Assembly (NCBI GenBank): GCA_015486055.1
Contig: WFSJ01000057.1
Coordinates: 1-48,414, forward strand
DNA: 48,414 nucleotides
Source: Acidobacteriota bacterium
Lineage (GTDB): Bacteria; Acidobacteriota; Aminicenantia; S016-38
Reading direction: 5' to 3'
Under the pieces are notes generated by a model that saw only the letters and a program-made list of their open reading frames with translations, searched no databases and was not told where the DNA came from. Below, piece by piece: positions 45,111 through 48,414 of the stretch. Positions within the stretch are counted from its first letter, which is position 1, and each line of letters starts with the position of its first letter. Both the position numbers and the translations under genes were made by a program.

Positions 45111-46614
45111 CCGCTTTTATTTTAACCCCAAAATAGGGGATTATGGAACCAGTCGATTTCCTCAGATTATAAAGGGCTATATTATAATCCATTATTGCCT
45201 TCAGGGCATTTATCTTTGCGTTTGCAAGGTCCCTCTGGTATGTGAGAACCATATAGTTGGTGGAGGCACCATGGGAAAATTTTTCCAGTTCAGCTTTGAG
45301 TTTTTCTTCTGCAAGCTCTTCTGCTTTCTTTGTGGCCTTTATTCTCTGGAAGGCCGACATTGCATTTCTCCATGCCTGTTTTACTTCATATCTAACCTGT
45401 GATCTTATCATCTCATAGTTTCTTTTTGCCTGATAGTATTCTGCAACTGCTGCCTGAAATTCTCCAATTTCTTTTTTTCTTTTTATGGGCATGGTATAAA
45501 TGAGCTGAAGCTCAACTGAGTTATAATTTGCCTTTAGTGCTTCGTTCAAGGAGTCAATGGGGGAACCTGGCACTTTCCCAATAATTTTGCCTCCGAATGG
45601 GTTGTTGTTTTCATATAGGACCTTATCTCCTCCTCTTCCTATAGTTGAAAGGACAAGCTGGAGGTTAAGTTCGGGTTTAAGGGCATTCTTTTTTACCTTC
45701 ATTTTAAAATTTGCTGTTTCCATATCTTTCCTTGCACCAAGTATCTGGGGATTTTCCTTCATTGCGAGGTTTATCATTGAATTAAGGTCCATCTCCTCCT
45801 TTGCAACCCTTGGAACTTCAAGAAGGGAAGGGTCCTGAGGGATGTCCACTATCCCTGTTTCCCTTGCCAGTTCTTCCCTTGAGTTTTCAATAGTGTTTCT
45901 TGCATCTATTAGTTCAGCCTTCCTGCTTTCAACCTCTGACTCTGCCTCTATTATGTCTATGGGAGCTTTTGTTCCAACTTTTACCATCTCCCTGTTTTGG
46001 TTATAAAGATTCTGGGCAAGCCTAAGGGATTCCCCCTTCACTCTGTAAACTTCAATGTTATAGAGATAGTTCCAGTAGGACTGGACAACCTGAAATATAA
46101 TATCCGAGGCCTTGGACTTGAAGTCGAAGAGGCTTTTCTCGTAGCCCTTTTTCGCTATTATTATGCTCTGCTTTGTCACAGAGGAGCCGAAATTCTTGAG
46201 AAGAGGATGGGAAATTGTAAGTTGGAATATGCTGGTATAGCTGGGGTTGAGATTGTAGAAGATATTTGTTGTGTAGTTTCTGTCCTGGGTTATTCCAAAG
46301 TTTATCTGTCCGCCTGAGGGGAGGTTTTGAACAATGGAAATTCCTCCTGCTTCATGGTTGGTTTTTACCTCCTCGCCTCTTCCTCCGAAGATAGAGTTCG
46401 GTTTTTGCTGGTCCCTTGAAGCTGATGTGGTCAGGGAGAAAGTGGGAATAAAAAGGCTTTTTGTGGCTTCAAACTGGCTCTTTGCCTGAACCGGTGCATA
46501 TTTGTAAACAAGGATTTCTGGATTTTTCTCCATAGCATGGAGAACAGCATTTTTAAGCGGGAGTTTCCCTGCAAGTAATGGTATAACTGCAAACAGAAGA
46601 AGAATTTTTCTCAT
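45076..46614 (-). CDS. TolC-family outer-membrane efflux/export protein
   Basis: A 512-residue outer-membrane efflux protein. The signal peptide (MRKILLLFAVIPLLAG) is followed by two OEP repeats (about 20-250 and 270-495) of long alpha-helices and short strands, e.g. QNLPSGGQINFGITQDR, KVGTKAPIDIIEAESEVESRKAELIDARNTIENS, and LEKFSHGASTNYMVLTYQRDLANAKINALKAIMDYNIALYNL. It would form a trimeric export duct. No membrane-fusion or inner-membrane pump gene is adjacent; instead glycosyltransferases follow, so it may serve polysaccharide export or an unlinked pump. SD GGAGGTGA is 4 nt before ATG. The first three codons and upstream region are duplicated at 48270-48414. Confidence 0.9.
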   Translation of the reverse strand: MRKILLLFAVIPLLAGKLPLKNAVLHAMEKNPEILVYKYAPVQAKSQFEATKSLFIPTFSLTTSASRDQQKPNSIFGGRGEEVKTNHEAGGISIVQNLPSGGQINFGITQDRNYTTNIFYNLNPSYTSIFQLTISHPLLKNFGSSVTKQSIIIAKKGYEKSLFDFKSKASDIIFQVVQSYWNYLYNIEVYRVKGESLRLAQNLYNQNREMVKVGTKAPIDIIEAESEVESRKAELIDARNTIENSREELARETGIVDIPQDPSLLEVPRVAKEEMDLNSMINLAMKENPQILGARKDMETANFKMKVKKNALKPELNLQLVLSTIGRGGDKVLYENNNPFGGKIIGKVPGSPIDSLNEALKANYNSVELQLIYTMPIKRKKEIGEFQAAVAEYYQAKRNYEMIRSQVRYEVKQAWRNAMSAFQRIKATKKAEELAEEKLKAELEKFSHGASTNYMVLTYQRDLANAKINALKAIMDYNIALYNLRKSTGSIIPYFGVKIKADEDFGGYNLIQ

Positions 46615-46750
46615 TTTTCACCTCCTTTTTTTATACGAGATTAAAGGTGTATTGTTAGCTGTATAATAAAAATTTCCTTCTAATATTAAGATAATCTCCC
46701 GTAGATAAAAGTTCATAGATTTCTTCCTCCTCTCCGTTTTCTATCCAGTC
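46606..46750 (+). repeat. direct repeat R, copy 1 (tolC start, promoter, end of upstream gene)
   Basis: These 145 nt recur at 48270-48414 in the same orientation with a single mismatch (46659 C versus 48323 T). The copy holds the first three tolC codons, its SD, the presumed promoter and the last 31 codons of the gene upstream. Copy 1 is the native one since tolC continues intact from it. The repeat may be longer than 145 nt because copy 2 runs into the window end. Confidence 0.95.
46630..46658 (-). promoter_or_regulatory. putative promoter of the tolC-glycosyltransferase operon
   Basis: On the minus strand CTAACA (46653-46658, 4/6 to the -35 consensus) and TATAAA (46630-46635, 5/6 to -10) are 17 nt apart. 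Transcription would begin about 10 nt before the SD of tolC. The -35 box overlaps the stop codon of the upstream gene. The single mismatch with copy 2 of the repeat falls one base outside the -35. Confidence 0.4.
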
Positions 46751-46954
46751 TCTGAAAGAAGGACTGCCGGTTATTATGTCGAAGGGGAATTTCTGGTGCT
46801 CATATTCATAAGGAGGAGGAAGGAACCTGGACTTTTTGTAAAAGGAAAAAATCCTTTTTGCAAGGAGAAGCCCTGTCTTTAAAGGCCTAAACCTTTTATC
46901 AAAACAACAGAGTTCAACCCCGAAACAGAGCTGCCCTTTATATTTATATATAAT
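46655..46954 (-). pseudogene. 3' fragment of a host-type gene, cut off at the GC-rich block
   Basis: A minus-strand frame encodes 99 residues ending FLLYS before the stop at 46657-46655. It contains GQLCFGVELCCFDKRFRP, LAKRIFSFYKKSRFLPPPYE and FPFDIITGSPSFRDWIENG. Codon choice (AGG/AGA, TTT, GAG/GAA) is that of the host genes. There is no usable start: the frame runs into GC-rich DNA at about 46955, where composition changes abruptly. I take it as the C-terminal part of a longer protein whose 5' part is missing here; I do not recognise the family. Its last 31 codons recur at 48319-48414 (final residue Asn instead of Ser). Confidence 0.6.
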
Positions 46955-47085
46955 CCGCGTCGCCGTCGGGATAGAACACGTTAAAGACCTGATTGCCGTC
47001 TGCGAAAGGGAATTTGCAGCGATTTAATTGCCAGCATGGGTTGTTATCCTGACGAGAAGATGTGTGCCGCCTTAAACTTGAAAAC

Positions 47086-47739
47086 TCACTCCCCCAGCAG
47101 GGAAACATAAATCTCCACGCGGCGGTTTTTCGCCCGGCCTTGCGGGTTGTCCGAGCCGTCAGGATTCGTATTCGGAGCAATAGGCTTCGATTCCCCGTGC
47201 CCTTTCGTGATGATTTTTGTGCCCTCGAGTCCACCCTTCTCGATCAGCCAGGCCTTGACCGCATCGGCCCGTCGCTGGGAGAGGGCAAGATTGTATTCCT
47301 CCGAGCCCTTGGCGTCGGTATGTCCTTCAATGAGGATCTCTTTTACTCTGAGTCCTTTGATGGCCTTGACCAGCTTGTAAAGGGTTTTCTCCGCAGCTTT
47401 CTTGATATTCCACTTGTCAAAATCGAAAAGGACATCTCCGGAAAGGGAGACCTGAATTTTTTCCCCCACCTTCTTGGCGCCCAAGTCGGTCAGCATCTTA
47501 TTAACCTCGACCGATATGCCCTTAATCTGGACACTTTTCAAGCCTACGATTCCTAAAATCTCACCCTTGACAGATATTGCCCCGCGGTCGGGCCCCAGGC
47601 GATTGACGGCTTCCTGTGCGGCCTTCACCGCTGCGGGATCATCGGGACCCTTGTATCCCTCCTCCGCGCTGACTGTCTGCACGCACAGGAAGAGTACCAT
47701 CCCCGTTCCCAGCGCCGCCCATATTTTTCTCTTTTTCAT
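47086..47739 (-). CDS. OmpA-family peptidoglycan-binding protein
   Basis: A 217-residue exported protein: signal peptide (1-25, ending VSAEE), a region of about 70 residues including a BON-like stretch (SVKGEILGIVGLKSVQIKG), and an OmpA C-terminal domain (about 98-215). GDVLFDFDKWNIKKAAEKTL, EGHTDAKGSEEYNLALSQRRADAV (D142 and R156/R157 for diaminopimelate contact) and KNRRVEIYV are visible. It would tether the outer membrane to peptidoglycan. Codon use is GC-rich and foreign to this window, resembling deltaproteobacterial-type genes. It starts 2 nt after the preceding gene's stop, with a poor SD. Confidence 0.9.
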   Translation of the reverse strand: MKKRKIWAALGTGMVLFLCVQTVSAEEGYKGPDDPAAVKAAQEAVNRLGPDRGAISVKGEILGIVGLKSVQIKGISVEVNKMLTDLGAKKVGEKIQVSLSGDVLFDFDKWNIKKAAEKTLYKLVKAIKGLRVKEILIEGHTDAKGSEEYNLALSQRRADAVKAWLIEKGGLEGTKIITKGHGESKPIAPNTNPDGSDNPQGRAKNRRVEIYVSLLGE

Positions 47740-47741
47740 AG

Positions 47742-48203
47742 TTAACGGGAGATTTTAATGCCTTCAAAGGGCAGTATATAGGGGATATAGAGATCAACGG
47801 TCTCCGTTGACTGCGGAGGAGCGGGAAACTTTATCCAGAAAATTCGCTTCTCCCCAGGGTTCATCCACTGCCGAAACTCTCCTCCCCCAATCCAGTAATG
47901 TACGGGTCCCGCAATAAAGTTTCCATTGGTATCCTTGAGGCCGTAATACTTCTTTTTCGCCTTGATGTCTGTGTAATAGACGTCAGCGAAATTGAAGCCG
48001 AAACTATCCCTCGCCGACGAAACATTTTTGAAAAGCACCTGAAATGTGAGCACTTCTCCCCTGACTCGGGCACTAATGACGGAGGCCTCGAACTTTCCAT
48101 CCGACGACATCTGGGTCTGGATGACATTACTCCCCCAGCCTGTGGATGCCCCCATCATGACGAGCGAAACGACCAAAGACAACCGTGCAACCTTCTTTTT
48201 CAT
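47742..48203 (-). CDS. exported hypothetical protein paired with the OmpA-family gene
   Basis: A 153-residue protein with signal peptide (KVARLSLVVSLVMMGASTGWG, cleavage after about 24) and a predicted all-beta body (FEASVISARVRGEVLTFQVLFKNVSSARDSFGFNF... VHYWIGGGEFRQWMNPGEKRIFWIKFPAP) like a periplasmic immunoglobulin-like sandwich. I do not recognise a named family. SD AGGAGGAT lies 4 nt before the ATG. It is co-directional with the OmpA-family gene (2-nt gap) and shares its GC-rich codon use, so the pair probably arrived together. Confidence 0.8.
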   Translation of the reverse strand: MKKKVARLSLVVSLVMMGASTGWGSNVIQTQMSSDGKFEASVISARVRGEVLTFQVLFKNVSSARDSFGFNFADVYYTDIKAKKKYYGLKDTNGNFIAGPVHYWIGGGEFRQWMNPGEKRIFWIKFPAPPQSTETVDLYIPYILPFEGIKISR

Positions 48204-48269
48204 ATAATCCTCCTCTCTGTTAAGTATCTATTCGAACTATTTTAACACAAACTTAAGTGGTGGACGAAA

Positions 48270-48414
48270 TTTTCTCATTTTTCACCTCCTTTTTTTATAC
48301 GAGATTAAAGGTGTATTGTTAGTTGTATAATAAAAATTTCCTTCTAATATTAAGATAATCTCCCGTAGATAAAAGTTCATAGATTTCTTCCTCCTCTCCG
48401 TTTTCTATCCAGTC
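48270..48414 (+). repeat. direct repeat R, copy 2 (truncated tolC start) at the window end
   Basis: Matches 46606-46750 with one mismatch. Here the tolC ATG and next two codons (48278-48270) are fused to unrelated sequence, giving a dead reading frame of 13 codons (MRKFRPPLKFVLK, then stop). The SD and promoter of tolC are intact, so this copy would drive transcription toward the GC-rich genes, whose first ATG is at 48203. The C-terminal coding piece at 48319-48414 continues to the window edge. Confidence 0.95.

Follow-up and report, generated by a model that had tools for sequence, protein, structure and literature searches.

A foreign gene fragment at the end of an Aminicenantia contig, most likely misjoined rather than carried by a mobile element

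One end of a contig assigned to an Aminicenantia bacterium carries a GC-rich block of about 1.32 kb (about 46948-48269) between two direct copies of the stretch in which tolC and its upstream gene meet, which raises the question of whether foreign DNA was integrated at this locus or was joined to it in the laboratory or by the assembler. The window analyzed, of 48,414 nt, is the entire contig C57 of a bin of 60 contigs (1.86 Mb, 98.9% complete), and the block together with the second repeat copy forms its last 1.5 kb. The sequence-only reading had proposed either single-crossover (Campbell-type) integration of a circle or a misjoin. We favor the misjoin, with a probability of roughly 0.84, in the form of an assembly or sequencing-library chimera at a contig end, in a region where at least two differing host strains are represented; the anatomy of a Campbell integration was formally present and the other tests favored the misjoin. 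The features discussed are collected in Table 1.

Table 1 Features at the tolC end of contig C57.
Feature	Start	End	Strand	Remarks
tolC-family outer membrane efflux protein gene	45076	46614	-	512 aa, native, intact; Pfam OEP 1.2e-48
Repeat copy 1	46602	46750		tolC start, intergenic region and upstream gene 3' end; native position
Native upstream gene, 3' end	46655	46947	-	last ~95 codons, stop near 46655; C24 match
Left junction zone	46948	46952		not C24-like, not clearly L039-like; no long shared sequence
Foreign cystathionine gamma-synthase (CGS) family gene	46953	47024	+	last ~23 codons, 5' side missing; L039 match, frame seen directly
Foreign OmpA-domain protein gene	47086	47739	-	217 aa; Pfam OmpA 2.1e-24
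Foreign 153-aa gene	47742	48203	-	upstream partner of OmpA gene; no family match
Foreign region upstream of 153-aa gene	48204	48257	-	colinear with L039 to 48257
Right junction zone	48258	48269		L039 colinearity runs to 48257
Repeat copy 2	48266	48414		three tolC codons, intergenic region and first part of the upstream gene's 3' end; reaches contig end

The tolC gene also matched TIGR01844 (type_I_sec_TolC, 1.9e-41), under the curated cut-off. Its upstream neighbor reads as NamZ/DUF1343-like from the sequence and had no match in NCBIfam. Bases 1-249 of contig C24 match 46699-46947 at 96%, the first 70 bases being identical, and C24 runs on into a complete upstream gene of 361 aa (C24:2-1084; L007:2-1084). 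In a congener (G001) only about 100 bases, and no insert, separate this upstream gene from the tolC gene that follows it; four same-family genomes of another genus have the upstream gene, with no tolC found closer than 1.5 kb to it. Because the congener has both genes adjacent and C24 completes the upstream one, the arrangement expected in the host genus is the upstream gene followed by tolC, with C57 and C24 carrying its two halves.

The two repeat copies lie in the same orientation with a spacing of 1664 bases and share 147 of 149 bases (two mismatches), an alternative alignment giving 152 bp at 98%; the earlier description of a 145-bp direct repeat with one mismatch holds for 48270-48414. 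The last 52 bases of copy 2 are identical to C24:1-52. The truncations proposed earlier were also found: in copy 2 tolC is cut after three codons (ATG AGA AAA, then TTT CGT instead of ATT CTT), and the upstream gene is truncated on the tolC side, with the cut now placed at 46947 instead of about 46955, the left junction at 46947-46952 and the right one at 48257-48269. Native identity to C24 stops at 46947 and foreign homology begins by 46953. On the far side, where the upstream gene was first described as continuing intact to the edge, the contig stops after only about 95 bases of it, and the full gene is on C24. C24 thus carries the complete upstream gene into which copy 2 was expected to lead; copy 1, being 5% diverged, does not match it over the full segment. 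The extra bases at 48263-48269 were considered as strain-specific host sequence and set aside; this needs two substitutions in tolC codons 4-5, and a chance match is likelier. No inverted repeats were found around the block. No run of Ns occurs at its junctions, nor can a long sequence common to host and foreign relatives be seen at either of them, so a misjoin induced simply by a repeat does not explain them.

That the GC-rich stretch of about 1.3 kb is foreign, as first suspected from its letters, was confirmed by colinear relatives and by composition. Its G+C content is 51% versus 40% in the host, and the comparison of tetranucleotide profiles inside and outside, as suggested earlier, showed an outlier against 398 of 398 equally long host windows, as did G+C. 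The block's OmpA protein shares 85% amino acid identity over 189 residues with one encoded on JALTEW010000238.1 (L039), the best OmpA relative returned when 84,980 species genomes were scanned, and the block is colinear with that sequence (L039/G060) over 1.2 kb at 72% nucleotide identity. The CGS fragment has a 76% nucleotide match over 67 bases to L039, whose gene has CGS family hits in NCBIfam, and a protein match at L008:6900-7025. The 153-aa gene had no match in Pfam, NCBIfam or PHROGs and shares 54-56% amino acid identity with the gene at the same position in L039 and L201. The order CGS, OmpA, 150-aa gene, ilvE, nth also occurs in G417; G419 has the same CGS-OmpA-ilvE-nth order with no 150-aa gene detected, and in G415 CGS and OmpA are adjacent. 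The block begins inside CGS and ends just short of the expected ilvE position. Because this conserved gene order recurs in other genomes and the cut falls inside CGS, the block is a slice of the ordinary chromosome of an unrelated bacterium.

Neither the 60 genomes closest to the host (0/60) nor 396 genomes drawn across the host phylum carry the block. Vertical inheritance, or a region common to the host genus or family, was rejected, the relatives having only OmpA-domain paralogues at ~40%. Elsewhere in the host class, OmpA-domain proteins at 42-54% identity to that of the block occur in L030 (G008), L031 (G034) and L032 (G029), and these are closer to it than the domain-only paralogues of the host family. 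The remark that the block holds no mobility gene was borne out with Pfam, NCBIfam and PHROGs; a plasmid collection gave no match, and a phage collection and PHROGs gave only generic OmpA-domain matches.

Copy 1 past 46768 (46769-46947) is about 5% diverged from C24. Nine codons differ, seven synonymously and two nonsynonymously, and so few nonsynonymous changes in an unconstrained fragment have a P of about 0.001 if three quarters of random changes are taken to be nonsynonymous. Given this excess of synonymous differences, the copy 1 segment appears to be an allele of a working gene and not an old relic. Other contig ends in the bin overlap each other at 92-98%, much as copy 1 does with C24, so mixed strains probably break the assembly elsewhere in the bin also.

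Six contig-end pairs of the bin overlap by exactly 151 bases. De Bruijn assemblers leave overlaps of the largest k (maxK) at contig ends, and strain-variant reads can be involved (PMC10914622). Copy 2, which spans 145 to 152 bases depending on the alignment, has the length of these recurrent terminal overlaps; its length is for this reason uninformative on any biological repeat and probably marks where the assembler stopped. A survey of G+C over the last 1.5 kb of the readable contig ends, five masked contigs of <3 kb being left out, revealed no systematic pattern of foreign tails on other contigs, with only C57, C26 and C19 exceeding 46%. The C26 end is rRNA, and the C19 end, for which Rfam gave no match, overlaps the C26 start. 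The host 23S rRNA gene on C26 (L149, G000:C26:50981-53980) contains a group I intron (Rfam RF00028, 64.2 bits) at 930-1617, with a 149-aa ORF (1136-1585) that, judged by eye, resembles a LAGLIDADG homing endonuclease. Between the 3' end of C41 (L162) and the 5' end of C43 (L108) there are many diverged repeat matches, at 67-78% along hundreds of bases, which point to one long, internally repetitive region split across both contigs.

The misjoin is favored because the block was cut at random from another bacterium's chromosome, is absent from relatives and sits at a contig end, and because copy 2 has the overlap length and copy 1 is 5% diverged. The two sides of the join come from different organisms, and the native sequence continues uninterrupted elsewhere, on C24. 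Chimeras of two organisms are described as rare and as recognizable by missing read-pair support, different coverage or a different phylogenetic profile (PMC7111523), the last of which is seen across this join. We infer a laboratory or assembler origin for the junctions. Coming from tolC, the assembler would have left the main path onto the other strain's allele of the upstream gene (46769-46947), which would then have been joined to a 1.3-kb piece of an unrelated bacterium's chromosome; this piece would then have been linked to that host locus again, where the contig would have stopped about one overlap length further on (about 151 bases). The real host locus would be the upstream gene followed by tolC with nothing between them, the remainder of the gene lying on C24.

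Several points count against such a chimera. Besides the rarity described for joins of two organisms and the lack of Ns or a long shared sequence at the junctions, the block meets one and the same 350-bp host locus at both of its ends, in one orientation, and a real tandem insertion gives the same assembly graph with the same terminal copy of ~151 bases. Since two independent random misjoins would not produce this, the explanation needs a circular or tandem chimera, and a single molecule of this kind (0.35 kb of host and 1.3 kb of foreign DNA) could supply both junctions in one event. Chimeric contigs and strain-variant ends described in metagenome-assembled genomes (PMC7111523; PMC10914622) are similar in having two organisms per contig with differing composition and phylogenetic profile, a terminal overlap of fixed length and strain alleles at contig ends, but in C57 both ends of the foreign piece meet one host locus, which gives a Campbell-like picture. 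Chimeras from multiple displacement amplification (MDA; PMC1855051) likewise join unrelated segments with little or no homology; 85% of those joins are inverted, whereas the host segment recurs directly here, so that the usual MDA mechanism is a poor fit.

Against the misjoin stands a real insertion in one strain, by Campbell-type or illegitimate recombination, which would make this an Aminicenantia strain with a recently integrated random foreign chromosomal fragment, a host duplication of ~350 bp and no mobility gene; taken together, such readings are unlikely. In the Campbell-type version, itself a slim prospect, a circle with ~350 bp of host sequence, in another strain's allele, and the foreign 1.3 kb would have crossed over at the tolC/upstream-gene locus, duplicating the shared segment and leaving the intact upstream gene (C24) behind copy 2. 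Direct repeats in the same orientation, 1664 bases apart, do lie on both sides, with two genes complementarily truncated as in known single-crossover integrations, and the anatomy is formally satisfied because the complete upstream gene is on C24, whose start equals the last 52 bases of copy 2; divergence of the donor segment would also account for the 5% difference. However, unlike in those integrations, plasmid or phage functions are lacking and the copies are not identical. There is one mismatch in 145 bases and then 5% divergence between copy 1 and C24, whose sole tie to copy 2 is the 52-base overlap. Moreover, the circle itself requires an earlier illegitimate joining of host and foreign DNA, and it would have brought no replication, relaxase, integrase or selectable gene, only the CGS fragment, the OmpA gene and the 153-aa gene. 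No relative carries the block, and the block and copy 2 are terminal on the contig, with a terminal length that is usual for this assembly.

Ranking after it, and improbable, is a reading in which a linear piece of foreign DNA, taken up by one strain, entered the locus through illegitimate or homology-facilitated illegitimate recombination and the target was duplicated. Non-homologous junctions around a randomly cut piece of foreign chromosome fit such events, a process documented in bacteria with one homologous and one illegitimate end (PMC3240628). The outcome described there is nevertheless not a direct target duplication of ~346 bp, the copies differ (1 in 145, then 5% versus C24) in a way unlike a recent duplication, and the contig-end objections to the Campbell-type integration apply equally. 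A mobile element or integron-like cassette, suggested by foreign DNA flanked by direct repeats, is very improbable and appears already largely refuted by the chromosomal colinearity of the block, which is cut inside a gene and has only generic OmpA-domain matches in the phage libraries, and by the host origin of the repeats, these being the host's own tolC/upstream-gene junction at a locus that in the congener has no insert, with neither a transposase or integrase gene nor inverted repeats present.

The stretch is thus most likely a misjoined foreign gene fragment at a contig end and not a mobile element, and its significance lies mainly in data quality. Annotation of this bin would list about 1.3 kb of outer-membrane genes from another organism as acquired horizontally, and the upstream gene would be miscalled as truncated though it is intact on C24. 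The terminal-overlap and allele tests are an inexpensive way to screen contig ends for comparable cases. Were the insertion real, the locus would illustrate that environmental DNA can be captured illegitimately in nature.
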